Positions 38,947 to 64,000 of a stretch of DNA of 64,000 nt are shown one piece after another. Where the stretch lies: assembly GCA_024195265.1 (NCBI GenBank), contig JAJLRJ010000007.1, forward strand, positions 9,310,828-9,374,827. Reading direction: 5' to 3'. The position numbers and the translations under genes are program-made. The stretch is from Dendrophyllia cribrosa. Its lineage: Eukaryota > Cnidaria > Anthozoa > Scleractinia > Dendrophylliidae. The first letter of the stretch is position 1; each line of letters opens with the position of its first letter. The notes beneath the pieces are model-generated. The model was not told the origin of the DNA and searched no databases. It was given only the letters and a program-made list of their open reading frames with translations.

Positions 38947-38954
38947 TAGTTGTT

Positions 38955-39138: not shown

Positions 39139-39211
39139 TAGCTATTATAATCACTAAGAAAGCAACTAAGAAAGCAACTAAGAAATCACTAAGAAAGCAA
39201 CTGTAGTTGTT

Positions 39212-39395: not shown

Positions 39396-39404
39396 TAGCT
39401 ATTA

Positions 39405-39950: not shown

Positions 39951-40094
39951 TAATTTTTTTCCCACATATTTATTTAATAGGATTATTTATATTTATTGTA
40001 AAAATTTCATTTATTTAATAAGCTGAACTATTGAAAGCTGACCAATTCACGCGTATGGGAAACCTTTGTGAATTACAATTATAGATGTAGATAG

Positions 40095-41292
40095 GGAATT
40101 TTTCCAGTCTGTGAGCTGGAATGCTGGAAGAATTTTCATAATAATATTTTCCAACCTCATTTATAATATTTTATTAATTTCGCGATTATTCAACCTACTT
40201 TTAGTCTTGTATTCAATAGTCCGGCTTTGACTGAGAGGTTGCGTGACAACCGTGAGTTCATGTGTAAACAAATTGCACGAAATGAGTCGTTCGCGTAGTG
40301 TATACGGACACAGTACAGACTGAGGAAATTGGTATGAATGAGATCAACGCTCACTAGAATCGCTTAATGCATTTGAACAAAGACAATATTTTGGACTGGT
40401 AAGAATAAGTGATTACATGGAAATTTTACGAAAAGTCTGGACTCCCGTATGAATAGCAAATTGGCCGTCCACAGTCAGGACCAGTCAGCGAATAAAATTA
40501 AGCTTTTGTCTTCAATATATCTCAAATGATTTTTTCTTTCGGGCTGTTCACCACTGTGAGACCATTAATAATAAAATAAACGAATCGCGAAAAAAAGGAA
40601 AAAATATTTTTTTTAAACTTGACTTGAACTTGACTCGTGAAATGAGCACAAACGAATCCCAGGCATAGGGAAGTATTCTCTGACAATTAAAGTGATCGTC
40701 TTTGACTGACCCTACCACCATAATTTGCCGCAGGGTTGAAACTAGAAGCAATTTGTCGCGAAGCATGACTAAATAAATGAAATGAATGAAAGCATGACTG
40801 TCGGTGGGCTGCCGAACTTGGAATATCGAAAGTTTATAAATCTTGACGGAGGGCAACTCTTCGTTTACATCTTGGAAAGTATCTACAACATTGTAAACGG
40901 CCGGGAGAGCACTGTTGTTGCTGAAATCCTGTTGAATTGAAGAACCAGACCCCGTTTCCCTTATCTCTGAACTCACAATTTCTCTCACGATGCGCTGAAT
41001 TCTGTCTTCTTCCATTGCCGCCATGTTGTTGTTGCTTGGTGCAGCCTCGCTTTCATTCTTCGCGGGATACGAGTCAGCTCATTTGCATAAGTTTGCACGC
41101 CGATATTTATATGTCGAAACTGTATCCGCAATATATATGTCGAAAATTACGTCATCGCCTTGGACATATATTTTGTAAACTGTGGACATATATATTGCAA
41201 TTTGGACATATATATTGCAATTTGGACATATATATTGCAATTTGGACATATATATCAATCTTTCGACATTTTGAGCCTATTTGACAAGCATA
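40095..41292 (-). repeat. Foldback, right arm
   Basis: Inverted partner of 37150-38290. It includes the minisatellite with fewer units (about 41160-41265) and the second MAAMEEDRIQ segment. Confidence 0.85.
40548..41024 (-). pseudogene. Captured coding segment MAAMEEDRIQ, right foldback arm
   Basis: The minus-strand frame from 41024 gives MAAMEEDRIQRIVREIVSSE, then a region shared with the left arm up to VYNVVDTFQDVNEELPSVKI, after which the copies diverge. It is the longer of the two frames (158 codons). Function unknown; see the left-arm entry. Confidence 0.4.
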
Positions 41293-41352
41293 GTGGAGGG
41301 AAAAGAACCAATTCGGGACGGTAGAGGAAGTTCGAGGATCAAGCAGAATATA

Positions 41353-41610
41353 TGTTCTGTCACGCATGTCACATATCTTGCGTTACTACATAGCTTGTTA
41401 CGTAGTGTATTTCGCCATAGGAATTATGGGATAGGGGATTCCATGTGATTGCTTTTTTAGGGGAATATTGTTTTGCTAGCTGGTGGAAACGCTTTCTCGT
41501 TTCACCGCGAAATTTTGCTTAGATTAAAACCGGTTACACGTCTGATGAAAGGCCTACGTCTCGTTATTTACTGGGGAGTATCATGGATCAAGGTCTGACG
41601 GATCAGAACA
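41353..41610 (+). repeat. BEL/Pao 5' LTR
   Basis: 258 bp, TGTTCTGTCA...GATCAGAACA, with canonical TG/CA ends. Only a handful of differences from the 3' LTR are visible, indicating recent insertion. The Gag-Pol ATG at 41583 lies inside its last 28 bases. Confidence 0.92.
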
Positions 41611-47600: not shown

Positions 47601-47951
47601 GACCTCTACAGCAAGCAGTGGAGACAAGTCCAGCACCTGGCCAATGTATTCTGGTCCAGATGGCGGAAGGAGTACCTGCCGACACTCCAGCCTAGACGGA
47701 AGTGGCAACACGAGACAAAGAACCTTGAAGAGGGTGACTTGGTTCTTCTCCGCTGTAAAGAAGTCCCAAGGAACAGTTGGCCACTTGCCCGGATCACCAA
47801 AGCCTACCCCAGTGCAGATGGAAAGGTGCGCAAGGTCGAGTTGCTGACAACCAGGGATGGATCCAGAAGGAGCTACACTAGACCGGTGACTGAGGTTATA
47901 CTGCTGAGGAGCGAGAATGACTTTCAAAAATTGAAAACCACTGTTGGATGA
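41583..47951 (+). pseudogene. BEL/Pao Gag-Pol polyprotein with one in-frame stop
   Basis: The frame spans 2123 codons and is open except for TAA at 45738-45740. Domains in order (residues counted from 41583): helical N-terminus and coiled coil (~60-300); DUF1759-type Gag with KFDNRPENYNTWKAAF (~415); zinc knuckles CFRCL...C and CTECQSDKH (~690-720); an aspartic protease/A17-like region with YVVIDDQSNCSL (~790); reverse transcriptase with GKVRVVFDSA, FMADIEQMF and FYVDDG (~1125-1250); YDPLGLAAP (~1355); RNase H-like HTFCDASNEA (~1420); integrase with HHQ-type zinc-binding region, DVFGPW, LRSDCGTNF and HVGGVWERM supplying D, D, E (~1810-1925); C-terminal GDLVLL domain. The stop falls at a point where homologues seem to have more residues, so a small deletion may have made it. 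Only one disabling change is visible. Confidence 0.93.
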
Positions 47952-48098
47952 ACTGTCTCAGCCTAGTGCTGAAGATTGCAAACTGAACATTTAACTTTAA
48001 GAAGTTATTTTTCTCTAATCAAAGATTAACATTTTTGTTTACCATGTATCGTTACCGTTTATATCATAGTGGTATCTCTGCAATACCAGGCGAGGAGT

Positions 48099-48355
48099 GT
48101 TCTGTCACGCATGTCACATATCTTGCGTTACTACATAGCTTGTTACGTAGTGTATTTCGCCATAGGAATTATGGGATAGGGGACTCCATGTGATTGCTTT
48201 TTTAGGGGAATATTGTTTTGCTACCTGGTGGAAACGCTTTCTCGTTTCACCGCGAAATTTTGCTTAGATTAAAACCGGTTACACGTCTGATGAAAGGCCT
48301 ACGTCTCGTTATTTACTGGGGAGTATCGTGGATCAAGGTCTGACGGATCAGAACA
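48099..48355 (+). repeat. BEL/Pao 3' LTR
   Basis: Matches 41353-41610. The position equivalent to the Gag ATG reads GTG here. The target duplication ATATA follows. Confidence 0.92.
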
Positions 48356-48589
48356 ATATAAGATAGCGTGGTCTAGAAACCTCAAACGAATATATTTGGA
48401 AAATCGGATATTTAGGTCATGGCTTCAGGCTAAATTCGATGCCGGGAATGAAGGTTCCAGTGACAGCGACTTTGTCGCCCATTTGTTGTCGTTGGAATAT
48501 CGTCGAAGGTATGCTATGTTTTCATGACTTTGGCTTCAGTTTGCCCTCCTCAGGACGAGTGGCTCCTTGACAGAACCAAAAAATGATTA

Positions 48590-48699
48590 GCCTACGACAC
48601 GAGGTATTCCCAGGCGGTCACCCATCCAAGTACTAACCTCGCCCGACAGGGCTTAACTTCGGTGATCGGACGAGAACCGGCGCATGTCAACCCGTGACA
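48590..48699 (-). rRNA. 5S rRNA-derived sequence fused to the TTAA element's right end
   Basis: The minus strand reads GGTTCTCGTCCGATCACCGA, AGTTAAGCCCTGTCGGGC, GGTTAGTACTTGGATGGGTG, ACCGCCTGGGAATACC and ends GTCGTAGGC. These are the conserved internal promoter and 3' half of animal 5S rRNA over about 90 nt. The first ~20 nt diverge and merge into the terminal repeat. A T-run follows the 3' end (TAATCATTTTTT on the minus strand). It is probably not a functional rRNA gene, but the internal control region seems intact. Confidence 0.88.
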
Positions 48700-49589
48700 C
48701 TGTCCCTTTAAGGGTCTTTAAGTTGTTGAAAAGTTGAATTAAAGATAACGTAAAGGTTCTTAAACACATATTAAAGATACTTACTTAATACTTTAATACA
48801 TTTAAGAGTATTTACGTCTCAACTTAAAGATTTTCGATACCTTTAAGTAAAATTTAATTTTCTCTTAAAGATTAAATTCATTATTTCGTCGTGTTATTTA
48901 CTTCAAGTTCTTATTGGTTGATTGGGTTGTTTGCGTATGTCGTGATTGGTCATAGTAGGACGGTTTTCAAGCGAGTGTCGAACTAAATTAATTGCGCGTT
49001 TGCTTTGCTTTTGCATTGCTACGCTATGTGATTGGTTAAATCAGAAGTATTGAACCAGAATCAATCAGAAAGTAAAACCAAAACCAATCGTGACTTGATT
49101 GTACGCGTTTTCCCCGCTTGGCGCCGGCTACATGTATTTGCTTCGAGTTCTGATTGGTTCATTGGATTGTCTGTGACTGTTGTGATTGGCCAGAGTAATT
49201 ACTTTGGTTTTGGTTTTACCACACTCAATTGAAAATCGCTCTTATGACTTTGGATTTGGTTTTGAGACATTCATTTGCAAACTCTATTGAAACTACTTTA
49301 AAGATCTGATGAAGAATGGAACTTACTGATGTCATTTGCTTCAACCACTGAAACTTTCAGAATGGCACAAGCCACAAACAGGAGAAGGAAAAATGATGCA
49401 CGACGGAATGCCTGCTGAAAAAGAAAGGTACGGACTTCTCAAACTCATGTTAATGAATTGATTATTAAAAATAATTCATCAAGTTTAAACAAAGACACTC
49501 ATAAGCGATAAGCGTGACGGTGGTTTGCAAATCCGATCTTAATTAGCATAGCTTTTGGCGATATTATCTTTCGTTTTCTCTGTATTTGA

Positions 49590-50847
49590 TGATCAGTTTG
49601 AGAAGCTATATCAAACACATAAAAGAGTGTTTACCTTAAATTGAGTTAAAAAAAACTCGACTGTGCCTCGTATTTTCAACCAACTTCTCGGTGTTTGGAA
49701 ATCCCGATGAAACACTCTACCTCGTGTTTCATATATCACATCAAACAAAATCGTCTTTAGTGGCTTTTCAATTGCATTACTTTTTCCTGACTTTTTCGGA
49801 TTTTGTTTCTTTTTGTTCTTGGTGTTCTTGCTTGTTCAAATGGATACACTGAAAAGAGTATTCGTAAACAAACGAACATTCGATATGGTCACACCTTTCG
49901 TATATATGCATAATACACCTTATTCCAAAATGGTGACCAATTTAATATTCTTTTATATGTATGTTAATTAGCCCTTGTTGCCTCGTCAGCATGTGCAAAA
50001 TACAACAGAATTTTCACGCGAAAATGAGGCAAAGAGGGCTAATTGACATGCACACAAAAGAATAATAAATTGCCCGCCATTTTGGAATAAGGTGTATGGT
50101 ATACGTTGAATTAACTCCACTACACTGACACTGACACTGACACTGACACTGACACTGACACTGAAGACGTGACACGTCAGCAATGAGGCCGGCAACTTCG
50201 TGGCTTTCAGTATCGACAAAAATCAACTATGAATGCCAGCAAAAGAATAAGAGAGTCGAGTACAAGTTGTATATAGTCTTATCTAATTTGTATATAGTTC
50301 TAATTTTGTAAATTTAATTTTTATAAATGTAATTCTTAACTTTTAGTATAGTAGGTCCACATCAGCCCTTTGGCTGCCTTTTATCCAACCTACCTATCAA
50401 ATAAAGTATGTATGTATGTATGTATGTATGTATGTATGTGTGTGTATGTATGTATTGCCATGAGTGAAATCAACAAGCTTCGCCTCGAAGTCAATAACCA
50501 GATTTCACCGTTAAAAACTGAAATTGGTGATCTAAGAAAGTCCTTGGATGCTGCCTGGGTTGAAATTGAAACGTTAAAAGTTCAACAGAAACAGAGCAAC
50601 GAGTTGGAAGTGGAACTAACACAAGAAAACGAACGCCTCAACGCCGAAGTAATCGCCCAGAAACAAAGAGCTATCAAGTTAGAAAACTACACGCGAAGAG
50701 AAAACATACGCCTGCTTAACATACCTGAGAGTCAAGATGAAGACTGCAAAGAATTAGTGAAATAAGTTATGAAAGCCGTTAACATGCCTAATGCAGACAG
50801 AATTGAGTTCCACGCAGTTCATCGAACTGGGAAACAAAGAGAAGACT
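49590..50847. repeat. Tandem unit copy 3, truncated
   Basis: Repeats 14450-15660 and its continuation at 18113-18247. It includes the MITE (49915-50095), the LINE start with six ACACTG units where copy 2 has three, the ATGT array and ORF1 sequence. Similarity stops at GAGAAGAC (50847), where another repeat begins. Confidence 0.85.
50458..50765 (+). pseudogene. LINE ORF1 fragment, copy 3
   Basis: Reads the same coiled coil and LENYTRRENIRLLNIPESQD as ORF1 in copy 2 but without the TTAA insertion. It shows the intact joint and dates that insertion after the duplication. A stop (TAA, 50763) replaces the next codon. Sequence continues as ORF1-like to about 50847. Confidence 0.75.
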
Positions 50848-52721: not shown

Positions 52722-53288
52722 GGGGGGTTACTTCTTTCTTCTTTATAGAAGCTATATTAGGGTATTGAGGATATGGCTGGTTCAACCGGTTAGGATTTCA
52801 AGAAGGGCGTCACATACCGCCACTAAAATTTTTGAGGAGCACCCCCGGACCTATTGTTAATTTCCCTAGGGTATTGAGATGTCAGAACTTTTCATGAACT
52901 TGTCATATCTCACATTACGTCACCGCAAAGGTATTAAAGTTCTTATTAAGTTTCGATATCTCACGTTACCTATCAAGAAATATCAATGTTTCAAATTTTC
53001 TACCATTTGTCGTAAAGCCATAAAGCTGCTTTAGAAGGGTAAAAATAGGTCAAATGCGTTTTCTTTGGAAACGCAGTTTGAGAATTTCACGGTGTATTTT
53101 TACGAATGGAGACGTTTTAAGGAAGTTAAATGGGACGGGAAAGTTTGTGTTTTACTGATGAGCGATATGGCAGAGCAAAATAGCATGAACTTTGGGTTTG
53201 TTCTATTTTGGAAAACTGAATCATTGCTATTACGGTTTGATTATGCAATACTATGGGAAAGACGTCATAGTTTTGGTGATTTAGCTAA

Positions 53289-53413
53289 GTAGTGGGTAGA
53301 GCGCTTCTCAAATGCGGTTTTTTGAGCCGATTTCCAATTTGTCCTCACTTCGTTCGGAAAAATTGGAAATCGTCTCAAAAAATCGCATTTGAGAGGAGCG
53401 CTCTACCCACTAC
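53289..53413. repeat. 125-bp hairpin at the edge of the right viral block
   Basis: Arms 53289-53341 and 53361-53413 (GTAGTGGGTAGAGCGC outer tips) flank a 19-nt loop. Read on the minus strand the outer tip is GAGTAGTGGGTAGAGCGC, resembling GAGTAGATGGAGAGGGC at the left hairpin. Confidence 0.85.
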
Positions 53414-53531
53414 TCGGGATTCCCGTCCTCAAACACCCGTAAGAGGGAGTCAAATTCGTTTTTCCCCGAGCCCACCCGCAACGGCAAGCGAGGCATCACC
53501 GATTGAAGAAACCACTCCTCTCATTGTAACA

Positions 53532-53765
53532 ATGGGGAGAGGAAGAAAGGGTCTTCTGACACAATCAGCTAAACGAATGTCATTTAACCTTTCAAGACAC
53601 GGAAGTCTTTGTTGTTGTGTATGCAGCAAAGGCAAATGTTACAGCTGTAAATACTTTGAAGAAACTCGAGAGCAAACATCTCCTCCATCCATTGTACCGC
53701 AATATATTCTTGAAGCCACACAAAGCCTGACTCCACAACAACTTGTGGCGTTGATTCCCAATTGA
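53532..53765 (+). CDS. Small Cys-rich protein, first gene of the right viral block
   Basis: The ATG at 53532 opens MGRGRKGLLTQSAKRMSFNL followed by the cluster CCCVCSKGKCYSC, a likely zinc-binding site, and a polar tail. The frame stays open upstream to the hairpin, with a Pro/Ser-rich stretch, so the true start may be further 5'. No TATA-like motif was found directly before 53532. The next gene follows after 31 bp. No family recognised. Confidence 0.45.
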   Translation: MGRGRKGLLTQSAKRMSFNLSRHGSLCCCVCSKGKCYSCKYFEETREQTSPPSIVPQYILEATQSLTPQQLVALIPN

Positions 53766-53780
53766 AGAAACCACATTACC

Positions 53781-53790
53781 CCATATAAAC
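53781..53790 (+). promoter_or_regulatory. TATA-like promoter before right zinc-finger gene
   Basis: CCATATAAAC lies 6 nt before the ATG at 53797. Confidence 0.45.
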
Positions 53791-53796
53791 GTGACA

Positions 53797-54195
53797 ATGC
53801 CATTCGCCAACGAAGCAATGACTGCCGTTGCGTTTTTGAAAATGAGGGGCATTGAGGTGAAAGAAGGCGATGACTTATATGCAAAGAACAAAGAGACGTT
53901 CGAATACAACCCTTGCAGACATTGTGGTTTAAACTTCACCCAAGGCCATTCTCTTGTTGAGCATCAAAAATACGCTTGCAAGAAGCTGCGAACAGAACCA
54001 CGCCCGAAAGAGATTTGTCCCGGCTGCAATCGAGCAGTTTCTAAACCAACCTTTTACAAACATCTAAAAAATGGTTGCCCTCCCGCGAAAAGAAACCCAC
54101 TGATGAACGTTGATACAGTACGATATCTCCAATTGGACAAATCTCTTCCCCTGTATATACCATACCAACATTGCAATGGTGGCTCAAGGACTTGA
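53797..54195 (+). CDS. Viral zinc-finger protein, homologue of the left-block gene
   Basis: The ATG at 53797 follows a TATA-like motif. There are two fingers: CRHCGLNFTQGHSLVEHQKY plus C (residues ~40-60, C-x2-C...H...C) and CPGCNRAVSKPTFYKHLKNG plus C (~75-95), the second matching the left-block protein at 3044-3457. The C-terminal ~25 residues overlap the promoter and start of the next gene by 20 bp. They may not be original sequence if a frameshift lies near 54110. A DNA- or RNA-binding role in viral expression or replication is inferred. Confidence 0.65.
   Translation: MPFANEAMTAVAFLKMRGIEVKEGDDLYAKNKETFEYNPCRHCGLNFTQGHSLVEHQKYACKKLRTEPRPKEICPGCNRAVSKPTFYKHLKNGCPPAKRNPLMNVDTVRYLQLDKSLPLYIPYQHCNGGSRT
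54152..54162 (+). promoter_or_regulatory. TATA-like promoter before 54176
   Basis: TGTATATACC lies 14 nt before the ATG at 54176 and inside the preceding gene. It supports an independent start there. Confidence 0.5.
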
Positions 54196-54628
54196 CATAA
54201 AACCAAAGAATCTAGACAACTTCGACAAATGGTTGCTGACCTTTGGTGAAGTCAATTTGGACTACTTACCAGACATGCTCCAGGATTTCATCCTTGAACT
54301 GGCTTTTAGGTTTATACAACGTGACTTAGACGCCAGGGACCTTCATCAACACAGGATGAAATCTGTATGCTTTTCAATAAAAAATCATTATCAATGGCAA
54401 CACCTTTGTCATTTGCGTTTATTAACTTCACAAACATGTGAGGAATGCCAAGAACACTTCTCGCCAGAAGTGGACATGGGCAGGCACAGAGCCATTTGTC
54501 CTGGCATGCCGCTTTATAGAGCTTTTCAGGGGGCATTGATGTTTACAGGCATCGACAGTGATGACGAGGAAGATTATGATGGCCCAAGTGCTTACGAAAG
54601 TTTCTATGGCAGTGCTCACTCAACGTGA
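54176..54628 (+). CDS. Viral zinc-finger-like protein, function unknown
   Basis: The start at 54176 is chosen for the upstream TGTATATACC; the open frame extends back to 54110 without an ATG. The 150-residue protein has a helical N-terminal half, then CEECQEHFSPEVDMGRHRAI followed by C (a C-x2-C...H...C finger, residues ~93-115), and an acidic tail. It is convergent with the VLTF3-like gene, overlapping it by 13 bp. In the left block this position is occupied by the YqaJ nuclease on the opposite side of the zinc-finger gene, so gene content differs between the two viruses. Confidence 0.55.
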   Translation: MVAQGLDIKPKNLDNFDKWLLTFGEVNLDYLPDMLQDFILELAFRFIQRDLDARDLHQHRMKSVCFSIKNHYQWQHLCHLRLLTSQTCEECQEHFSPEVDMGRHRAICPGMPLYRAFQGALMFTGIDSDDEEDYDGPSAYESFYGSAHST

Positions 54629-55347
54629 CCCATCTTTTCAAGCATGATCTTCCAGCTTTGTTCGTGCTTCCACATTGATTTTTCTGGGACTTGCAGCCAG
54701 AAGTAATTGACAAGCCGATGTGGCCCTTTTATCGCATCCAAGATTTTGTGGGCCACAAAGGGCATGGAGATTCTTTTCGGCAGATATTCTTCGATGAATT
54801 TGAAAGAATCATTTGCATGTTGTATTTCATCATTGGACAAGCAGACGTGGTGTTCACAAATTTTCAGATGTTTGTTGAGATAGCTTTTGAAGTTGTAGTG
54901 TTTGGTGGCCATTCTTTTTTTGGTAATTGTGTAATCACCACCATAGAGCCCGTTGTAATCGAATGTAACACCATCCAGAGGCTCTAAGAGCCCGCAGTCC
55001 TCACAGCAAAGTTCTGATGAAAACATCCTGAGGTTTAATTTGCCTTTGCAGTTTTGGCAAAATTTTCTCCTTTCATTCACAAGGGTGAAAGGTGAGTGTG
55101 GAGGGTATTGTGCCTCGGGAGAAAGATACTCCTTGATGATATGAAGGCGTTCTGACAGGTTTGAACGCCGTATTTCCTTTGTGTAGTTTTCGAGTGAGCG
55201 CAGGAGGATAAATTTGTATTCTTTATCAAGCTCATCGAGTTTGGCTTTGTATTCGCCTTTAGTGTCCAAGGACCGAATATCAGCCAGTTGTTTAGCGAAC
55301 TTCTCCATGGTTGTACACAGCCGGGTTATGTATTCAATTGGGTGCAA
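54616..55347 (-). CDS. VLTF3-like late transcription factor (right), internally shortened
   Basis: An uninterrupted minus-strand frame aligns with the broken left-block gene. It has a zinc-ribbon pair CQNCKGKLNLRMFSSELCCE-DC, the HYNFKSYLNKHL block, and LSNDEIQHA...YLPKRISMPFVAHKI near the C-terminus. Compared with the left gene, about 70 residues between the HYNF block and LSNDEIQ are missing. No ATG opens the frame: it begins after the stop of the neighbouring gene with TTG at 55347 as one option, and the first in-frame ATG is at 55311. VLTF3-type factors activate late promoters, fitting the shared TATA motif. Family call is from pattern memory; activity is doubtful given the gap. Confidence 0.65.
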   Translation of the reverse strand: MHPIEYITRLCTTMEKFAKQLADIRSLDTKGEYKAKLDELDKEYKFILLRSLENYTKEIRRSNLSERLHIIKEYLSPEAQYPPHSPFTLVNERRKFCQNCKGKLNLRMFSSELCCEDCGLLEPLDGVTFDYNGLYGGDYTITKKRMATKHYNFKSYLNKHLKICEHHVCLSNDEIQHANDSFKFIEEYLPKRISMPFVAHKILDAIKGPHRLVNYFWLQVPEKSMWKHEQSWKIMLEKMGHVE

Positions 55348-55386
55348 ATGATTTATCCTTAGAAATGTAGAGGTTAAAGCCCGAAT

Positions 55387-56073
55387 TTAATCTCTCAAAT
55401 CGGATTTGGATGCTGTGGTGAGAAGACTTATCTTTTTTTGAAACTCTTGTTTGACTTCCTTGCGAAGTTCGTTTTTGAGTTTCTCGAGGTCTGGCGCTTG
55501 TGTTTGAGTGGCAACGTCTTTTTTTGCCCTAACACCATCCCTGATTGCAGCTTTGAGTTCGTGATATTTTTCCACCTCACGAGTAATTATGGTGAATTCT
55601 GTATCACTGATCCTCTTGTCTTCCAGAGCCTTTGAGACCAGTTCATTGACAGAGTTGCGTTTAGCCAGTGCCAGTGTATAGATCTTCTCGTGTTTAGTCA
55701 CTTTACGCTCTAATCGCTTGTTAGCAGCTGTAAAGCCAACAGAGGACAACCCACAGAGGGTCGCGATGCCGGCAAGTGCTGGACTTGCAATAATTCCGAA
55801 CCCAGTCAATGCAGTGGCAAGGGCACCTGATGACAGCCCAACAGAAAGCGACCCAAGGCCAACCGCCGAGTAATGAACTAAGGATTGGGTTCGTTTATAT
55901 TTCTTTGCGACTTGTCTGTAATGCTCGGCTTCGTCAGACAGCTCTTTAAGCAAGTCAGAGATCTTTTTGAGTCGGAAGTCTTCTGCATTGATTTGAGTGA
56001 TCCCAAGGTCAGGGTATATCTTTTGTGTATGGCTGTATTCGGGGGCCGATGGTAGCACATTAGCAGAACTCAT
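55387..56073 (-). CDS. Viral membrane/coiled-coil protein, complete copy
   Basis: The ATG at 56073 follows CATATATATACC on the minus strand. The 228-aa product has a polar N-terminal helix region, a Gly/Ala-rich hydrophobic stretch at residues ~70-115 (probably two membrane segments), then KHEKIYTLALAKRNSVN and a coiled-coil tail. It is homologous to the truncated gene at 1-498. The VLTF3-like gene follows on the same strand about 40 bp later. The hydrophobic pair plus coiled coil suggests a virion membrane or scaffold role, but no family name can be given. Confidence 0.75.
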   Translation of the reverse strand: MSSANVLPSAPEYSHTQKIYPDLGITQINAEDFRLKKISDLLKELSDEAEHYRQVAKKYKRTQSLVHYSAVGLGSLSVGLSSGALATALTGFGIIASPALAGIATLCGLSSVGFTAANKRLERKVTKHEKIYTLALAKRNSVNELVSKALEDKRISDTEFTIITREVEKYHELKAAIRDGVRAKKDVATQTQAPDLEKLKNELRKEVKQEFQKKISLLTTASKSDLRD

Positions 56074-56080
56074 GGCGTGG

Positions 56081-56092
56081 GGTATATATATG
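56081..56092 (-). promoter_or_regulatory. TATA-like promoter before 56073
   Basis: CATATATATACC on the minus strand, 7 nt before the ATG. Confidence 0.6.
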
Positions 56093-56097
56093 ATTTT

Positions 56098-56769
56098 TTA
56101 ATTTAACTCAACTTCAAATTCCAAAGGCGCGCCATTGAAGTTGAAGAGGTTATTGTTCTCATCCCTAACTGACAGTGTGATAGAGTTAACAAATTCGCCA
56201 GACGAGACGTCACGCAAGACGTTCTGTTGTGTTGTCTCGTAAAACACCTTCTCAAAAGCTTTTCCACGAATATCAAACCGAGCCAAAACTGTCGAAGGCT
56301 TCCCATTGAGGAGGTTTTGCTCTTTATCAACCAAATCACAGTGGATGAAGTAAGTGCTTGGTGCCCTTAAACGCTTGACGAAGGTTACTAGCATCAATGC
56401 AGGTCTTATGCCAAGCAATTCTGCCAGATTGTTACTAAGCGTCACACTGTTGCTGTTATTATGAATGACCATGACCCCGTATGGCCTGTTTGTTTCAATT
56501 GTTAGGTTTAAACGGCTGTCGTGGTCTTTTAGGCTTTCAAAGTCTTTCGCTAAGCTATCAACAGTGTAATGGCCTTGAAGTAAGGTCACGACACGTGATG
56601 AACTATTAGGGGGAGGGCCCGTTGGCGAAATCTTTGCTTCTTCTTTCAAATTATGCCAAGCGTTGAAAATTGAGCAAGAAACAAGACGGATATAACTCGG
56701 TTTCGGCAGTGGGCGGTCGAAATAGATCGTGTGAGGGTTCGAAGGTGTGACGATTGTTAACACAACCAT
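56098..56769 (-). CDS. Predicted all-beta viral structural protein (minor capsid candidate)
   Basis: The ATG at 56769 is preferred because TATATACAACAATC precedes it; an upstream frame to 56814 would cross the divergent promoter. The product is 223 aa and begins MVVLTIVTPSNPHTIYFDRP. It is rich in alternating hydrophobic/polar strands (SVTLSNNLAELLG, NSITLSVRDENNNLF) and ends PLEFEVELN. Such strand-rich composition and its place beside the virion gene set fit a penton or other jelly-roll minor capsid protein, but no motif proves it. It is divergently arranged with the 606-aa gene. Confidence 0.5.
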   Translation of the reverse strand: MVVLTIVTPSNPHTIYFDRPLPKPSYIRLVSCSIFNAWHNLKEEAKISPTGPPPNSSSRVVTLLQGHYTVDSLAKDFESLKDHDSRLNLTIETNRPYGVMVIHNNSNSVTLSNNLAELLGIRPALMLVTFVKRLRAPSTYFIHCDLVDKEQNLLNGKPSTVLARFDIRGKAFEKVFYETTQQNVLRDVSSGEFVNSITLSVRDENNNLFNFNGAPLEFEVELN

Positions 56770-56816
56770 GATTGTTGTATATAATAAACATTTTATAATT
56801 ATAATTTTATACAATC
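56770..56816. promoter_or_regulatory. 47-bp divergent viral promoter
   Basis: The minus strand carries TATATACAACAATC before ATG 56769 and the plus strand carries TTTTATACAATC before ATG 56817. Both genes must be controlled from this short A/T-only spacer. Confidence 0.6.
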
Positions 56817-58637
56817 ATGGTTGGCAGACGGCCTGGTGGATTTAATCCTAATTCAAATCTTGGCATAAACATCGGGGGCCACAATTACGGGCCCCCGCCT
56901 CCTTTTTATTCGCCTCCAAATGCCTATACCCATGTCGCGCCAAAGCCACACCCAAATCCTGAAATGGCTTGGTTGAGTTCGCCGGAGGCTGCCAAGCTCT
57001 CTGCCGCGGCCAAGGCCAAGGCAATTTCAGATTTCAAAAAGCGTTTCCCGCACGCTGATATGTCACACTTTGAAGTGCAAGTAGAGTTTGGCGACGACCA
57101 CAAAACAGCAACGGGGGAAGTGCTTTACAAAGAGGGTCAAGGCTCATGGGGGCTTATCACAGAAATGCCCCACAAAGATTGGACTGGCGCTGAAAGAGAT
57201 GCTCTTGGCCTTCATTATGACGGGGGTTTCCCTTATCAGTTATCGTTGGGGCAACCAGAAAAGTCAATCCCAGCTGTTGCTTTCTCCTCCACAATAGACA
57301 AAGACATGATGATTGGCGCAATCTTGAATGACAAAGAGCAAAAGATTTACGTCACACCAACTGATTATTTCACAACGAAATACAGAAATATCTTCAGGGA
57401 CACGCAGATATCATTCACAACCGCTAAATACGGGCTAAAGTGGATGGGTGGTCCTCATATGAGCTTTTGGCCACAACAACTCTCCTTCGCACTGTGGTGT
57501 GCAACAACCGGCTGTGGAATCTCGCGTGACATTATCTTCGATAAGAACTCAAGTCTATCCCTAACCCCACAGCTCCGGTCGTTTTACCGGTTTCACGTTT
57601 ATTTCACAACAAGGCGAATACTCTACCAGATGGGTGGGGAACAAAGCGTGAGTGCTTTGCCAGACGACCCTCCATTTAACCAGAAAGACAATAAATACAA
57701 CATCGACGCGTACAAGAAGCTTTGCATAGAGTTCGGTATCGACCCCAGTTCTGACTTCCGTTACACATACGGTAAGAACCACGGGCTTGGGAATGTCTAC
57801 ATTTGGGAAACTGGAGAGGGCCCCAGCTCTACCGATTACACCTATCCAGACTCTGATCTAGCTCTGTTCAATGATGAGCGCGTTACTGACAGAAAAGACC
57901 CCAATTATCGCGCCAATGGAATAACTTTCGTCCGCAACGATCAAGGGGCGGACACCCAGTTCGAGCACTTTGTGCCAAATTACGCACAGGGGCTAACACA
58001 GCCAGGGCTCGCGCGTATGAACCAATCAATCGAGGCCTTTGTGTACTGCATTCTTGGTTCACAAGCCAAAACCCGCAGCAGCATCATTGGAAGAGGAGGC
58101 AGGGCTTTCGAAACGCAGAGAGTATTCCTCACCCATCTAGAGGAGGCCATAATCCTGAACGACATCGCAACAAGCGTACAGCGATACCAGCTTGCCATCC
58201 AAGCAACGAAAGTGCGCCTGGACTTTGCGACAGCACCCGGAAGCTGGCTCATACCCTCGCGCATGATTATCAACACAGAGAGCGTGATCGGGTATAACAA
58301 CAATCTACAGGAGGCAACGCAAGGGATGAAGCTGGGCGTGAACAGTGGTGTTAATCCAGGCACAAAAAAAGCCTCCCTTCGCCACATGGCCGGTGGACCA
58401 ACAAAGATTAATCCACCAAACAGCCACCCATCAAACCCGATACATAAACAGGCTACACAGGCACAGGGCATCGCCCCAGCCACACCACAACCCACACCCA
58501 CACCCACACCAACACCAACACCCACGCCCACATCAACCCCCGCACCCACACCACAGCCCGACCCGCATCACGTCTCCAAGGCAGTCGTTGCTGTTGGCGC
58601 GCTTTCTTTGGCTGGGCTTTTCGTTTGGTTGAGATAA
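56817..58637 (+). CDS. 606-aa viral protein with Pro/Thr stalk and C-terminal membrane anchor
   Basis: The ATG at 56817 follows TTTTATACAATC. The N-terminus is Gly/Pro/Asn-rich. The central ~450 residues look folded (SFWPQQLSFALWCATTGCGI, RSFYRFHVYFTTRRILYQMG, RNDQGADTQFEHFVPNYAQG). Residues ~560-585 are a repeated P-T-P-T stalk and the last ~20 (AVVAVGALSLAGLFVWL) form a membrane helix. No signal peptide is evident. The frame is intact. It ends 5 bp from the oppositely oriented coiled-coil gene. I remember similar uncharacterised proteins in cnidarian genomes but no function. A spike or minor capsid protein anchored in an internal membrane is a guess. Confidence 0.7.
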   Translation: MVGRRPGGFNPNSNLGINIGGHNYGPPPPFYSPPNAYTHVAPKPHPNPEMAWLSSPEAAKLSAAAKAKAISDFKKRFPHADMSHFEVQVEFGDDHKTATGEVLYKEGQGSWGLITEMPHKDWTGAERDALGLHYDGGFPYQLSLGQPEKSIPAVAFSSTIDKDMMIGAILNDKEQKIYVTPTDYFTTKYRNIFRDTQISFTTAKYGLKWMGGPHMSFWPQQLSFALWCATTGCGISRDIIFDKNSSLSLTPQLRSFYRFHVYFTTRRILYQMGGEQSVSALPDDPPFNQKDNKYNIDAYKKLCIEFGIDPSSDFRYTYGKNHGLGNVYIWETGEGPSSTDYTYPDSDLALFNDERVTDRKDPNYRANGITFVRNDQGADTQFEHFVPNYAQGLTQPGLARMNQSIEAFVYCILGSQAKTRSSIIGRGGRAFETQRVFLTHLEEAIILNDIATSVQRYQLAIQATKVRLDFATAPGSWLIPSRMIINTESVIGYNNNLQEATQGMKLGVNSGVNPGTKKASLRHMAGGPTKINPPNSHPSNPIHKQATQAQGIAPATPQPTPTPTPTPTPTPTSTPAPTPQPDPHHVSKAVVAVGALSLAGLFVWLR

Positions 58638-58641
58638 ACGT

Positions 58642-60173
58642 TCAAGACTTCGAACGCTTGGTGATCCTTTCAACAAGGAAGGCCACCACGGCAAGGATGA
58701 GCAGCCAGGCGTGTTCGCCCAGAAAGGAGATGACCGACCCAGCCGCTTTAAAGATGAAGCTCACAATTGAGCCAATGAGGCCAGGCAGTGCGCTGGCTGC
58801 CTTTTTGCCAAACTCTTTAAGCCCATTTCCAATAGCCTTGGTGGCCCTTGCCAGGCCGTTCAAGGTGGCGAGTACAACAGCGCTGATGGTGATGCCAGCT
58901 GCCAGAACAATCGCTTGCAGGGTCCATCCGTATTTCTTGAAGATTTCTCTAACCCTCTCTCTCAAAGACAGGGCTTGTTCCCTTTCTTGAACCTGTGGTC
59001 GGAGCCTTGCCAGCTCTTCTTCTCGCTCAGCAACCCGGGCTTCCGCTGCTTCTCTTTCAGAGGGAGAAGTGTTCTCATCCTCTATGACGCGCTTGTCTTC
59101 AGCGTTCTGCCGTTCAAGCTCGGCTTCTCTTTCGTTTAACTCATCAAGGGGTTTAGTTGAGTTTAGCCTTGCTTCAACTTCATTTCTTTCTCTTGTTTTC
59201 TCAGAAAAGCGTGTTCTGAGTTTGTCAACCTTTGCCTGTTCTTTGTCTCGTTGTTTTTGTATTTTTTGAAGGGCCCCTAATTCTTTTTTCTGGTTTTCAA
59301 GATCTCGTTGAAGATTCTTTTTCACCAGTTTTAGGCGGTCTATCTCGGCTTGATTTTCAACGCTTGAACCGTGTTCCTGCTCCAGATTGTCAATCCTCGC
59401 TTGAGTTTGCTCAATTCTGTTTCTGAGGTTTTGCACCTCATTTTGTGCTTTTTGTTGTTCCACAGCAGCCCTTTCATTCTCCTTCAGTTGTTTTTCTGCC
59501 TCCTTCAATCTTTGTCTTTCTTCCCTTATTGATGCATTGTCTTCAGAGACAATCTCTTCAGCGCTTGGGCCAAGGGATGTTTTGAACTTGTCTGTGAACG
59601 ATTTAAGAAGGCTCGACCCATCTTGTTTGAAAATGGGAGTCTCGCCGCCCTTTGACCCAAAGGAAACTATTTTGCCAGAATTTGCTGGTTTTTTACCGTA
59701 ACCAATTGGTCCTAATTTCGCGATGTTTAGTTTTGGAAACTTATTTTTTAACCAGTCCATGGCTTTATCGATTTTATCTGCTTTTTCATTTCCGTCTAAG
59801 ATTTCTTCCAGCAGACGGACGGTTTCAGGGTCACCTGGCAGCCCACTTTGTTCGCGAGGCATTGTATGCATTTCATGCTGCTCGCCACCATGATATGGGG
59901 TGGATGCAGCACCTGGTTGATAAGGTTGACTTTCTTCGCGAGGCATTGTATGCATTTCATGCCAGGGCGATATGGGGTGGATGTACCGCCTGGTTCAAAG
60001 GGTTGCGTGGTGTTGGGGTCGGTGTCTTGGGTCCATCGGCGTCGTTCTTCTTCTGACATTTGATCCCACCTGACTTCAAACTCGTCATCGTCATCATTGC
60101 CATCCTCTGTGCCTGGGGTGGGGGTTTCCTCAGTTGGATCAGTTGGCTCGTAGTCGACTCCGCCTTCTGCCAT
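58642..60173 (-). pseudogene. Large coiled-coil membrane protein, one frameshift
   Basis: The ATG at 60173 follows a TTTATATACCC motif on the minus strand. The N-terminal part is acidic (GNDDDDEFEVRWDQMSEEER). The frame shifts near 59958-59965, inside two copies of a MHTMPREE repeat, and continues from about 59955 as one open frame. That frame holds a folded segment (~60-110), a coiled coil of about 200 residues (QNEVQNLRNRIEQTQARIDN) and a C-terminal region with two or three hydrophobic segments (VLAAGITISAVVLATLNGLA; WLLILAVVAFLVE). The ~510-aa protein could be a scaffold or virion membrane protein. Only the one disabling change is seen. Confidence 0.65.
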
Positions 60174-60176
60174 CGT

Positions 60177-60188
60177 GGGTATATAAAT
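60177..60188 (-). promoter_or_regulatory. TATA-like promoter before 60173
   Basis: Minus-strand ATTTATATACCC lies 3 nt before the ATG. It shares the 51-bp divergent spacer with the capsid gene promoter. Confidence 0.55.
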
Positions 60189-60210
60189 ATAAAATATAAA
60201 TTTTAAAAAA

Positions 60211-60224
60211 CACAAATATATACC
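60211..60224 (+). promoter_or_regulatory. TATA-like promoter before the capsid gene
   Basis: CACAAATATATACC abuts the ATG at 60225. Confidence 0.6.
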
Positions 60225-61611
60225 ATGTCTGTGCAACCGAATTTACTTCCATCTCACAGGGAAAAAACACTGGGCGCCATGAAGGCAGAGCGAACCGTCA
60301 AGTTCATCACATTCAACCCCTCTGAGGCCAATCCCGGCGAGACACTGTACGTCTCGGTGCCCAAGCTAAGGCGAGCACGATGTCATTGTGTCCGGCTCGC
60401 TGGCCCTGGTGTTCAACATCAGCCTAGCCGGCGGCCATGCAAACAACTATCTCGTGCAAAATGTTTCTCGGGCCCTGGTGGACAGGCTCGTTGTAAAGTT
60501 TGCAGCCACCACTATCCAGGACACGGTTGGATACGACATCTACAAGATCTTCGAAGACCTATTCCTCTCAGCGGATGAGCGGGACAACATGATTATGGAT
60601 GGCATCCAGAGTGTGGATTTGTGCAAGATCCGCTCTGGTGCTGGCGATAAGAAGACCTCCGGCGTGGATGCAGAGAACAAGCTTGAGACAATATACAAGA
60701 ATAAGTATCACATCAAGCTGGATCACCAAATCTTAACTGATCACGGAGTCCTATATCCTCGGGCACTGTACAGTGATCTGGTCTTCGAACTAACCCTCGC
60801 CCCCGCAAACCAAGTTGTCCGAGGCTCAGACACAAGCAAGCTCGTGTACAAGTTGGAAAACATCCAGCTGGAGTATGAGACGATCAGAAGTAAGGAGCTG
60901 GCCGACGAGGCAACAAGCACTTACACCAGTGGCAAGGAGTTCGCTTATGACCTGGTAATGCGAGATCGGGTGCATCCCTTCTCAAAAAGTGGTGACACTC
61001 GGCTGAATCTTCGGGTTAACCCACAGCGCCGGTCTCTCAAGGGCATCCTCTTGCTGTTCATCAACCCTTATGTAGCTGGTGCCAGGGATTCTGAGAACTA
61101 TTTCAATCCCGACATCACCAAAGTTAAGGTCACCATAAATGGGGTTCCAAACAGGCTTTACAATGATGGCATCAGTGGTACATACATGTGGAGAGAGATA
61201 ACCCGGCATTTTACCCCACATACGGCCGGCAGGCCTAACATGAACTTGACCAAATATCTCACAGGCAACAAGTTTGGTCTCTGGATTGACCTGCGGGCCA
61301 TGGGCGACACAGCCCTTCACGGCAACGGCCAACGGCTCGTCAACACACAGGATGGCGTGCAACTCGAGATCGAACGAAACGGTACAGGGTCGGGAAACTT
61401 ACTCTGCCACATCTTCACCCTCTCAGACGCACAGATGAACATCATGAACAGGCAGCTGGAATCTCTACTAAGTAAACGCAACACACACGAACAACGCACG
61501 CATATATATACCCACCAGCCCCATGGCCAGCCCCATGGCAACAAACAACAAGCTCAACTTCTATGCCAAGCCGGCTCCCCTGCCATCCACCGGATATCTG
61601 TCACACAATAA
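60225..61611 (+). pseudogene. Probable major capsid protein, one frameshift
   Basis: The ATG at 60225 follows the viral TATA motif. About 50 codons in, near 60371-60376, the frame shifts by one base; the rest is open from 60388. Recognisable blocks are AGGHANNYLVQNVSRALVDR, TVGYDIYKIFEDLFLS, RSGAGDKKTSGVDAENKL, RVNPQRRSLKGILLLF and KVKVTINGVPNRLY. I believe the last two types occur in the double jelly-roll capsid proteins of PLV/virophage-like viruses. The core ends near 61475 (NRQLESLL). The following ~45 residues read over the next gene's promoter, so the original stop is probably lost. The capsid-then-ATPase order supports the call. Structure prediction would be decisive. Confidence 0.6.
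61497..61516 (+). promoter_or_regulatory. TATA-like promoter before the ATPase gene
   Basis: CACGCATATATATACCCACC lies 6 nt before the ATG at 61523. Confidence 0.6.
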
Positions 61612-62294
61612 AATACAAAGACATCTGGCAATGGCCCCCTCCCCGCCAACACATGAACCAATTGTTTGCAAACCAACTAATATAGGTGTTGGGTATGGAC
61701 CCAAGAAAGCTGCCATTCAATGCACTAATCGTGGGCCCCACTAACTCTGGCAAGACACAGTATCTTCTCTCACAACTGCGAGGCCCCTTTAGGGGTTGTT
61801 TTGATTACATCGTTTTATTCTGCCCCACATTTGTTAAGAACAAGACATACGATGGCTTCGTGGACCGCGATCCGCACATCTTCGTCATCGTCTGCCAACA
61901 GCACGAGATCGAAGACTGGTTGAGGTTGGCGAGCTTCTTTTTCACATGCACCAACACTTTATTCATTCTCGATGACTGCGCCGCCTCCAAAGATGTCAAA
62001 GGCCGCACGGGTCAGCTGGTTAATCTGGAGTTCAGCGCAAGGCATGACGGCATATCCGTGTGGGTCTTGACCCAGCAGATTACCAGCATTGCCAAGCCAT
62101 ATCGTGATAACATTGCAGCGATCGTGCTCTTTTACACGCCATCCAGCAAGACAACCAAAGCCTTATTCGAAGATTATGCCGGCGAGCTCTCCCACGAGGA
62201 GTACAAAGAGTTTATCGCAAGGCTCAAATCCCGCAAGTTCTCCCACCTGGTTTTCTCTTTGAGACACCCGTATGGAATTGAGTACAAGATTTAA
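61523..62294 (+). pseudogene. FtsK/HerA-type genome-packaging ATPase, one frameshift
   Basis: This ATPase pumps viral DNA into the capsid. From the ATG at 61523, MASPMATNNKLNFYAKPAPL runs to about 61707, where a one-base change in AAGAAAGCTG shifts the frame. The second frame has Walker A GPTNSGKTQYLL, a hydrophobic strand plus acid at FILDDCAA (Walker B), and VLTQQITSIA, the Q-containing sensor-like motif typical of A32-like packaging ATPases. Total length would be about 257 codons, usual for PLV and virophage ATPases. It follows the capsid gene directly. Confidence 0.88.
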
Positions 62295-62296
62295 AC

Positions 62297-62310
62297 ACAC
62301 ATATATACCC
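62297..62310 (+). promoter_or_regulatory. TATA-like promoter before 62311
   Basis: ACACACATATATACCC abuts the ATG at 62311 and starts within 3 nt of the ATPase stop. Confidence 0.65.
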
Positions 62311-62550
62311 ATGAATGCGCCAACCAGTCTACACAAGCTCACTGTGCTTTCACAGCTTTTGGATGAATTGCACAAACACACCCTTGATACGCAAAACAAA
62401 ATTATCAAAGCCGCTGGTGAGGAAGATCTGCGCCTCATGCTTCTCAACAGATATCCATTGCGATTGACGTCTATGCCAGACACCATGGCGGGGCTTATAC
62501 GAGAGCTTGAAACTCTTTTGCCAGACATCAATAGAATTATTGAAAAATGA
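62311..62550 (+). CDS. Small helical viral protein (79 aa)
   Basis: ATG directly after the TATA motif. The product begins MNAPTSLHKLTVLSQLLDEL and is helical and Leu-rich, without Cys or membrane segments. It is intact and is the second of a run of same-strand genes each preceded by its own TATA motif. Unknown function; length and position suit an accessory virion or scaffold protein. Confidence 0.6.
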   Translation: MNAPTSLHKLTVLSQLLDELHKHTLDTQNKIIKAAGEEDLRLMLLNRYPLRLTSMPDTMAGLIRELETLLPDINRIIEK

Positions 62551-62559
62551 AAAACAAAA

Positions 62560-62575
62560 CACATATGTATACCCC
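62560..62575 (+). promoter_or_regulatory. TATA-like promoter before 62578
   Basis: CACATATGTATACCCC ends 2 nt before the ATG. Confidence 0.65.
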
Positions 62576-62577
62576 TG

Positions 62578-63203
62578 ATGGCTGAAGCAGCTGAAGACCA
62601 GGTCGCCTTGAACGAAGTAATGCAGATGCTGGAGGCCACCCCTGGTGCCGCACCTCCAACAGGGTTAGTTGGTGACAATGACATTCCTGCCAAACGTGAG
62701 AAGCTAGCAATCCTTGTTTCAACTGGCAAGGCCAAAGAAGCCATCGGTGTGCAGCTCACACACGATCATGTCAAGCGGTTGTCAGACAAGGACGTTGACA
62801 AGTACTGCAAAAGGTACGAGGCATACATCGGCAACAAGACAACCGAATCCCTAGTTGATTCTGGCATCATGCTCATATCCAAAGGCGTTGGCATGGTGAT
62901 CCCGGTTGATGATGTCAAGGAATTGCAGAAAGAACTCAAGAACGACTACATCATCAACCAGGAGCTGTCAAATCTGCCGGGGCTATTGCCATGCGATGCG
63001 GGCGATTGCTGGCGCTTGCCAATGCTGCTCTCATCACAACAAAACACATCAAGTTTGAACGAGAGCCTGATCACAAGCCTGATTTGATAGAATTGGAACC
63101 CCAGCCCCCACCCACACATCCAACCAGAGACAGTGAAGGCTATCCACTTGAGGGACTTGATGAAGTTGGGTTGGGACCTGGGGTGACCTCGCAGCAACCT
63201 TGA
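62578..63203 (+). pseudogene. Viral protein with C-terminal hydrophobic helix, one frameshift
   Basis: The ATG at 62578 opens an acidic N-terminus (MAEAAEDQVALNEVMQMLEA), then a helical domain (THDHVKRLSDKDVDKYCKRY), then a Gly/Val-rich stretch. Near 62975-62990 the frame changes. The other frame continues with a hydrophobic MRCGRLLALANAALITTKHI and a Pro-rich tail ending at 63203, which looks like the natural C-terminus. If rejoined it would be about 208 codons. No family recognised. Confidence 0.5.
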
Positions 63204-63258
63204 AGAAACCTGGCAGCAACCTGTCAGCAACCTGGCACATCTTGTAAAAAATAAAACT

Positions 63259-63270
63259 CACATATATACA
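63259..63270 (+). promoter_or_regulatory. TATA-like promoter before 63273
   Basis: CACATATATACA ends 2 nt before the ATG at 63273. Confidence 0.65.
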
Positions 63271-63272
63271 GG

Positions 63273-63935
63273 ATGGCCACACCACTCGAGACGATCCCTG
63301 AAGAAACTCCAGCTCCAACTCCAACACCTGACCGTGTTACCTCTGAGGCTCCGAAAACAAAGCCTGCAACAGAAAAGAACCCCGGGCGTGTTGCTTCTGG
63401 CAAAAGGCTAGCAGAACGCAACCGCCTGGCCCGGGAAGCAAAGAAAAAGGTCGAAGCACAAAAGCCTGCACCCTCAACAAGTGAAAACAATTCTCCAACA
63501 AGTGACACAACAAGTGACAGCAACAGCAACAGCAACAGCAACTCAATCTTTTATATTCTGGGGGTTGGTGGGTTGATTGTCTCTGCTGCTGGTGTTTATT
63601 ACCAGCGCGAAGCTATAATGCAAAGGCTTTGGAGAAAATCAAACACACCCGCTGCAACACAACCAGCAACACCCCATCTCGAGCCCGAGTCTGAGTCTGA
63701 GTCCGAGTCTGAGTCTGAGTCTGAGTCTGAGGCCGAGGAGCCCCGAGCCCGAGTCGAGGTCCGAGTCATTCTAGTCAAGGAGCCACAAGCCCGAGTCGAG
63801 GAGCCACAAGCCCAAGACGAGGAGCCCCGAGCCCAAGACGAGGAGCCCCGAGCCCAAGACGAGGAGCCACAAGCCCGAGTCGAGGAGCCCCGAGCCCGAA
63901 CCCGAGGTCGAGGTCGAGGCAGAGGTCGAGTCTGA
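63273..63935 (+). CDS. Single-pass membrane protein with Ser/Glu and EEP-R/Q-A repeats
   Basis: The ATG follows the TATA motif. Residues 1-90 are Thr/Pro/Lys-rich and polar, then an (N-S) run leads to a membrane helix SIFYILGVGGLIVSAAGVYY (~91-110). The C-terminal half is low complexity: alternating E-S (~135-150), then tandem EEPRAQD/EEPQARV units, and a final R-G tail. The repeats are encoded by nearly identical GAGGAGCC(C/A)C(G/A)AGCCC units, so length probably varies between copies. The frame is intact. A tail-exposed virion membrane protein is possible; no family known. Confidence 0.6.
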   Translation: MATPLETIPEETPAPTPTPDRVTSEAPKTKPATEKNPGRVASGKRLAERNRLAREAKKKVEAQKPAPSTSENNSPTSDTTSDSNSNSNSNSIFYILGVGGLIVSAAGVYYQREAIMQRLWRKSNTPAATQPATPHLEPESESESESESESESEAEEPRARVEVRVILVKEPQARVEEPQAQDEEPRAQDEEPRAQDEEPQARVEEPRARTRGRGRGRGRV

Positions 63936-63953
63936 GTCAGAAAAATAAAAAAA

Positions 63954-63965
63954 CACATGTATACT
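63954..63965 (+). promoter_or_regulatory. TATA-like promoter before 63977
   Basis: CACATGTATACT lies 11 nt before the ATG at 63977. Confidence 0.5.
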
Positions 63966-63976
63966 GCACACAAACC

Positions 63977-64000
63977 ATGTCTGACAACAAGCTTGTGAAG
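63977..64000 (+). CDS. Start of a further viral gene, cut by window edge
   Basis: Only eight codons (MSDNKLVK) are visible after the TATA motif, continuing the run of same-strand genes. The gene cannot be identified. Confidence 0.4.

Follow-up and report, generated by a model that had tools for sequence, protein, structure and literature searches.

We analysed a 64,000-nt window of the genome of the scleractinian Dendrophyllia cribrosa (GenBank assembly GCA_024195265.1, contig JAJLRJ010000007.1, forward-strand positions 9,310,828 to 9,374,827), one end of which carries a compact block of viral genes on both strands. This block (hereafter referred to as copy 1) extends from position 53288 of the window to its end at 64000, set in repeat-rich DNA, and its GC content climbs from 0.41 to 0.50 along its length. 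Its 13 genes, with broken genes taken at their full spans, make up 95.5% of 53532-63935 and are separated by gaps of -89 to 185 nt, while a fourteenth gene (63977-64000, plus strand) begins with an ATG preceded 12 nt upstream by TATAC and continues past the window end. The tight packing in both orientations, with almost no spacers, reported in the initial annotation of this sequence is thus borne out across the open reading frames (ORFs) from 53532 to 63977. No tRNA or Rfam match was obtained within copy 1 at gathering scores. A second and more decayed copy, missed in the initial annotation, lies at the other end of the window (copy 2, 91-3826).

The initial proposal, a DNA virus that has become endogenous and that encodes a packaging ATPase and a capsid of double jelly-roll type, agrees with two genes of copy 1. 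The gene at 61523-62294 (plus strand) is an A32-type packaging ATPase in two frames. In Pfam scans, which covered ten ORFs and three further ones and left out the 77-aa and 79-aa ORFs described below, it matches Pox_A32 with E 3.6e-14 (53.3 bits against a cut-off of 22.8) and no HerA, FtsK or other Pfam family at E<=0.1, so that a grouping with cellular HerA proteins, which would have spoken against a viral ATPase, was not seen. A Walker A motif is evident by eye, as annotated, and the Walker region falls in ORF 61686-62294. The probable N-terminal part is found in a different frame at 61523-61744, and this disagreement between the start-side and main ORFs indicates that the gene is probably broken. 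Among the PHROGs, the ATPase matches one terminase family (E 0.00074).

The adjacent gene (60225-61611, plus strand) encodes the major capsid protein. Searches with tblastn using two relatives, P0002 and P0003, place residues 1-57 of P0002 at 60225-60404 and residues 37-418 in another frame at 60334-61467; read from these alignments, the capsid gene of copy 1 is broken by a frame change. The homology stops at 61467, and the ORF extends further. Relatives of this and of two further genes were counted as clusters with E<=0.001, yielding 1877 capsid homolog clusters among 5300 candidates. Most of the 120 listed capsid relatives (106) are 405-440 aa long, and full-length capsid genes are therefore present in other assemblies. 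A structure model of the intact relative P0002, with a mean predicted local distance difference test score (pLDDT) of 51, has the PBCV-1 capsid as its best Foldseek match (E 2.6e-10), and the best 50 of 101 Protein Data Bank (PDB) rows at E<=0.001 are all chains of double jelly-roll virus capsid structures. The first jelly roll of the model superposes well (163 residues, 3.4 A). Within the limits of this low-confidence model, the predicted double jelly-roll fold is therefore upheld, and the alternative outcome of a capsid prediction lacking jelly rolls did not materialize. The PHROGs searches with 32 capsid members gave 13 weak families and no capsid family by name, and PDB sequence profiles of the capsid, 606-aa and VLTF3-like alignments returned no match of weight.

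An intact gene (56817-58637, plus strand) encodes a 606-aa protein with a Pro-rich tail and a C-terminal hydrophobic segment. At least 976 homologs were identified among 7989 candidates scored, the best-scoring being 59% identical, and its near-identical relatives form clusters of up to 686 members. Pfam assigns it no family, and 25 members give weak matches only. Together with 165 homologs of the VLTF3-like protein among 321 candidates, the many relatives of the capsid, 606-aa and VLTF3-like proteins establish these as real genes and exclude chance ORFs. To judge from contig sizes, the three genes travel together in relatives: among the 120 listed relatives per gene, obtained from three independent searches and representing 115, 115 and 114 distinct contig sizes (one VLTF3-like row omitted), exact sizes are held in common 14 times by capsid and 606-aa, 23 times by capsid and VLTF3-like, 17 times by 606-aa and VLTF3-like, and 4 times by all three, with only 1, 0 and 0 near-coincidences (off by 1-10 bases) for the respective pairs.

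Between the 606-aa and capsid genes lies a coiled-coil protein gene with C-terminal hydrophobic segments (58642-60173, minus strand) that occupies two frames: the frame opened by the ATG at 60173 runs to 59796, and the 437-aa main ORF starts at 59955. We infer from this offset between the start-side and main ORFs that the gene is broken. Its matches are of coiled-coil type only, and below cut-off where a cut-off is given. In the relative P0238 the reading frame of a 606-aa homolog continues past its end into coiled-coil gene sequence in antisense, the same arrangement as in copy 1, and the order of the two genes is hence conserved there. On the other side of the 606-aa gene, and divergent from it, lies g238 (56098-56769, minus strand), an open frame of 223 aa and, by position only, a candidate minor virion protein; at E<=0.1 neither Pfam nor PHROGs offers a family for it, and its best PDB match has E 0.48. 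The 47-nt spacer separating these divergent genes (region 56763-56823) has arms that are 80% complementary across it and a TATAC motif facing each of the two starts, making it a candidate two-way promoter.

The VLTF3-like gene (54616-55308, minus strand) encodes 230 aa comprising a Cys4 zinc ribbon and a VLTF3-like C-terminal part. The ribbon is conserved among relatives in alignments of 30 and 121 sequences. Of the 121 aligned homologs scanned, 3 matched PF04947 at E<=0.05, the best being P0258 (residues 136-235 on model positions 61-163 of 168; E 0.0019, 18.4 bits against a cut-off of 25), and 11 matched the TFIIB zinc ribbon at the same threshold (best E 0.0033); the matches inspected individually are below cut-off. 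On these weak similarities the VLTF3 name is likely. Matches to DUF5637 in 57 of the 121 homologs (E<=0.05) were taken as chance, as in the members inspected individually they fall below cut-off and span 18-20 residues of a model that is 33 residues long, and the VLTF3-like protein of the window has no DUF5637 match.

The remaining genes of copy 1 flank this core. At the outer end, a 77-aa Cys-rich ORF (53532-53765, plus strand) has GATTGAAGAAA upstream, with ATTGAA ending 24 nt before its ATG. It is followed on the same strand by ZnF1 (53797-54195; 132 aa, C2H2-like, AATTGAAGAAA upstream), which has a homolog in copy 2, and by ZnF2 (54176-54628), an open frame for a 150-aa Cys/His protein. 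Of the annotated zinc-finger proteins, ZnF1 gives a C2H2-like match that stays below the cut-off (zf-C2H2, E 0.0013), and no Pfam match was found for the ORF of ZnF2 (54110-54625). Next to the VLTF3-like gene, g228 (55387-56073, minus strand) is an open frame of 228 aa with a hydrophobic stretch recognized by eye. Downstream of the ATPase, three plus-strand open frames encode 79 aa (62311-62550, with TATATACCC directly before the ATG), 169 aa without a clear family (62578-63087), and 220 aa with one hydrophobic segment seen by eye and acidic/Arg tandem repeats (63273-63935), the last without a Pfam family at E<=0.1.

Copy 2 retains a recognizable subset of these genes. A g228 fragment at 91-495 (plus strand) was identified with tblastn (E 8.8e-58, 70% protein identity), and blastn links 193-535 of copy 2 to 55695-55350 in the g228 region of copy 1. 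A broken VLTF3-like gene in three frames spans 1061-1895 (plus strand): 62 of 120 VLTF3-like homologs match this segment at E<=0.001, the best at about 1e-15, and the copy-1 protein matches 1611-1895 with E 1e-6. An open minus-strand frame (1944-3047) encodes a 367-aa YqaJ/lambda-type exonuclease (PF09588, E 2.9e-16; TIGR03033, 5e-21, above cut-off), the best PDB match of which is R354 (E 5e-5), presumably the mimivirus protein. A ZnF1 homolog (137 aa, 3044-3457, minus strand) is likewise open, with tblastn similarity at 3442-3338 (69% over 35 aa, E 3.5e-12). Over the visible part of copy 2, both copies share the order palindrome, ZnF1, YqaJ (copy 2) or ZnF2 (copy 1), VLTF3-like and g228, the exception being the small ORF ahead of ZnF1 in copy 1. 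No further capsid or 606-aa remains were detected with tblastn in the 64-kb window at a meaningful E-value. Between the copies, g228 shows 0.20 nonsynonymous substitutions per site (dN) and 1.3-1.8 synonymous ones (dS), the latter near saturation, for a dN/dS of about 0.11-0.16, and identities of 0.80, 0.84 and 0.47 at the three codon positions, which argues for selection on its protein before decay set in.

These observations make it probable that a single family of small double-stranded DNA viruses, of the kingdom Bamfordvirae, left integrated copies, now in decay, at both ends of the window. With a broken capsid gene and a probably broken ATPase gene, copy 1 can hardly be functional now. 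The broken capsid gene and the ruined state of copy 2 also speak against the block being retained for the host, whether as genes that it has domesticated or as a cluster of transposons without a capsid, as do the many multi-member clusters of relatives and a virus-type packing without visible introns. We consider such domestication very improbable, even though the 606-aa gene is still fully open and the block sits in repeat-rich DNA. Several points nonetheless weigh against the explanation proposed here. The capsid model is poor and was built on the relative P0002 rather than on the window protein, and when it is superposed over its full length the root-mean-square deviations are near 20, a good fit being confined to the first jelly roll. 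The model of the 606-aa protein, from a 25-row alignment, is uninformative (pLDDT 40). The VLTF3-like factor of the initial annotation finds weak support in the three PF04947-matching homologs, but these matches fall below cut-off and the window's own protein matches neither PF04947 nor the TFIIB ribbon. Finally, the visible part of the element, which runs past the window, yielded no identifiable polymerase, integrase, protease or minor capsid protein.

Both viral copies are bordered by a palindrome at their outer ends. That of copy 1 (53288-53414) is a near-perfect 127-nt palindrome, detected as inverted repeats I1 and I8, that folds as DNA with -57.3 kcal/mol (z -18, 0/200 shuffles) and is a candidate terminus; that of copy 2 (3638-3826) spans 189 nt, is 89% self-palindromic and folds with -90.7 kcal/mol (z -23.5, 0/200 shuffles). 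They lie 382 nt and 180 nt, respectively, ahead of the start of ZnF1. Of the termini of copy 1, where Polintons would carry terminal inverted repeats and target-site duplications, the window shows the left one with its palindrome, the right one lying outside. Their position in the sequence is suggestive of ends of the viral copies. They could also be unrelated host fold-back repeats that lie beside the copies by chance, given that five other self-palindromes of at least 80 nt, from three repeat families, occur elsewhere in the window without viral genes, that the stems of the two share no blastn match and that, when both end regions are aligned locally, nothing but the motif region emerges. 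Yet no palindrome of the window has a better E-value than these two, each of them sits directly outside ZnF1, and few single-base shuffles align as well as their borders do (1/2000 for the inner 70 nt, 14/2000 for the outer 40 nt). A chance placement is rather unlikely. The five other self-palindromes (14774-14958, 49913-50097, 38426-38522, 11703-11783 and 35429-35509) are probably host fold-back repeats.

Inspection of the gene starts revealed two promoter-like motifs, with ATTGAA(GAA) preceding the regulatory genes and TATAC directly preceding the virion genes. TATAC ends 1-12 nt upstream of 10/10 virion-side starts, against 28 of 1492 background ATGs (all outside both copies) with the motif within 30 nt, and ATTGAA lies 24-39 nt upstream of 5/6 early-side starts, against 58 of the 1492 within 60 nt. 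Exact AATTGAAGAAA occurs three times in the 64 kb, each time ahead of a gene of the element, and all four exact matches of AYATRTATACMC stand ahead of virion-side starts; with one mismatch AYATRTATACMC has 12 matches (0/100 shuffles), five of them outside both copies. On the other side of the balance, AATTGAAGAAA with one mismatch is not enriched (11 matches in the window, a number reached by 8/100 shuffles), and some starts (g238, coiled-coil, ATPase) were picked with the motif in view. TATAC is also present at 3/6 early-side genes (ZnF2 and both copy-2 genes) and ATTGAA at 1/10 virion-side starts; because both motifs cross over between the gene sets, the two classes are not clean. Their reading as early and late signals is inferred by analogy with mimivirus, poxvirus and African swine fever virus promoters (PMC5294985).

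On this reading of the copies as remnants of an integrated virus, the virus would have entered germ-line DNA and then multiplied there. Early genes (the zinc-finger proteins, exonuclease and VLTF3-like factor) would be switched on via motifs of the ATTGAAGAA type, located 24-39 nt upstream of their start codons, after which the VLTF3-like factor would activate the virion genes, whose late promoters, of initiator type, would be formed by the TATATAC-type motif 1-12 nt before the start codon. Replication intermediates would be processed by the exonuclease, filling of the capsid with DNA would fall to the ATPase, and the end with the palindrome might be a terminus or an origin.

The DNA between the two copies contains several repeats. 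A retrotransposon, presumably of the BEL/Pao type, occupies 41353-48355, with two long ORFs (41583-45740 and 46134-47951) that are gag-pol and integrase-like by eye, 258-bp direct repeats of 98.8% identity on both sides and a higher GC content (0.50). A repeat unit of ~7 kb is present twice at about 97-98% identity, at 8160-15294 and at 31857-37036 plus 48705-50455, the second copy being split at 37036-48705 by ~11.7 kb containing the retrotransposon. Each unit carries one tRNA-Asn(gtt) gene (11598-11669 and 35324-35395). A minus-strand 5S rRNA match lies at 48589-48704, and a 257-bp unit is repeated 1.9 times head-to-tail with 100% identity at 38943-39422.

The initial annotation had labelled the element polinton-like, an assignment that the data do not establish: none of the polymerase, integrase, protease and minor capsid genes was identified in the visible part, and the viral-model matches are mixed. 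These include an adintovirus protein, adomaviruses, a Tetraselmis virus, virophages and giant viruses, with three unnamed entries, a bracovirus protein and an adomavirus protein ranking ahead of the first giant viruses. Capsid_N and P2_C, the latter of which we take to be the coat protein of phage PM2 from another virus group, each match 14/32 capsid members at E<=1 (best E 0.002 and 0.0037). A leaning towards Nucleocytoviricota-type viruses comes from the capsid structures matched in the PDB, from the YqaJ exonuclease of copy 2 and from the VLTF3-like gene, and a virophage or adenovirus affinity of the capsid may be compatible with the list of structures matched by the model.

Within the viral interpretation, two placements were considered. 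The element may be an ordinary animal polintovirus or polinton-like virus (Preplasmiviricota), its polymerase B, integrase and protease lying beyond the window and its VLTF3 likeness reflecting a generic zinc ribbon. The combination of capsid and ATPase, the near-identical relative clusters of up to 686 members, and viral-model matches that range from adintovirus protein, adomaviruses and Tetraselmis virus to virophages beside giant viruses make this quite possible, as do precedents in the literature: PMC10120064 reports that, among animal capsid genes, those of cnidarians alone fell outside the main Maverick-Polinton cluster, a Stylophora polinton is mentioned in PMC11071308, and a 2024 title on polintoviruses of stony corals appears in the reference list of PMC12721341. 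Neither protein-primed DNA polymerase B nor RVE integrase gave a Pfam match in the ORFs scanned, the element running off the window. It could instead be a mriyavirus-like small relative of giant viruses endogenous in an animal, with capsid, A32 ATPase, VLTF3 and YqaJ co-inherited and ATTGAA acting as a giant-virus early promoter. We regard this as unlikely, since the VLTF3 match is below cut-off, the ATTGAA likeness is short, P2_C matches the capsid as often as Capsid_N, and the best viral models precede the first giant viruses; moreover, VLTF2, HUH endonuclease and RuvC resolvase had no Pfam match among the ORFs scanned of this incomplete element. We slightly prefer a polintovirus-type placement over a small giant-virus relative, because of copy number and precedent. 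That the copies represent Nucleocytoviricota-like small viruses endogenous in animals at high copy, equipped with a VLTF3-like factor, a giant-virus-type early motif, initiator-type late promoters and self-complementary ends and bridging polinton-like and giant viruses, appears rather improbable.

The kind of virus is thus already known in animal genomes, its unfamiliar part being the motif classes and a gene set that includes both a VLTF3-like and a YqaJ gene. The initial suggestion of a little-described lineage may hold for these features, of which we found no description in the accessible literature, where the stony-coral polintovirus paper is represented by its title, but not for the virus type as a whole, cnidarian capsids and a coral polintovirus title being in print. 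Scans of an environmental virus collection with exact short peptides of the capsid, 606-aa, ATPase, g238, g228, YqaJ and VLTF3-like proteins confirmed 0 relatives, a search that distant relatives could escape; such viruses may accordingly be missing from present viral catalogues. A search of genome contigs with the capsid alignment gave 0 matches, as did searches of phage records with capsid and ATPase. Should the giant-virus-type genes and signals belong to the lineage, host DNA would hold a countable record of viruses intermediate between giant viruses and polintons, and the early/late promoter scheme, if true, would be directly testable in the host via transcript starts.

Polintoviruses, Mavericks and adintoviruses resemble the Dendrophyllia element as integrated double jelly-roll DNA viruses with a packaging ATPase, present in multiple copies in animal genomes; it differs from them in its VLTF3-like and YqaJ genes and in that no polymerase B, integrase or protease was identified in its visible part. 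Its capsid may be one of those cnidarian capsids that PMC10120064 places apart from the main cluster, and similar unnamed proteins of cnidarians offer a lead in that direction. Protist polinton-like viruses share the endogenous state, the double jelly-roll capsid and the mixed affinities, and differ in host type and in that no helicase-polymerase fusion was identified in the visible part here. Animal viruses combining an adintovirus-type polymerase and integrase with poxvirus- or giant-virus-like virion proteins are described in PMC11071296. Mriyaviruses (PMC11253617) likewise unite capsid, packaging ATPase and VLTF3 (the last weakly here) in one small genome, whereas their VLTF2, HUH endonuclease and RuvC were not identified in the ORFs scanned here; the same paper states that VLTF2 and VLTF3 homologs had gone undetected outside Nucleocytoviricota, and neither "animal" nor "endogenous" appears in its main text. 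The nucleocytoplasmic large DNA virus genes of Hydra and Exaiptasia (PMC5294986) likewise place giant-virus-type core genes in cnidarian genomes, VLTF3 being listed for Exaiptasia and other core genes for Hydra; the Exaiptasia VLTF3 is described there as isolated among typical animal genes, whereas the VLTF3-like gene described here lies within a viral cluster.

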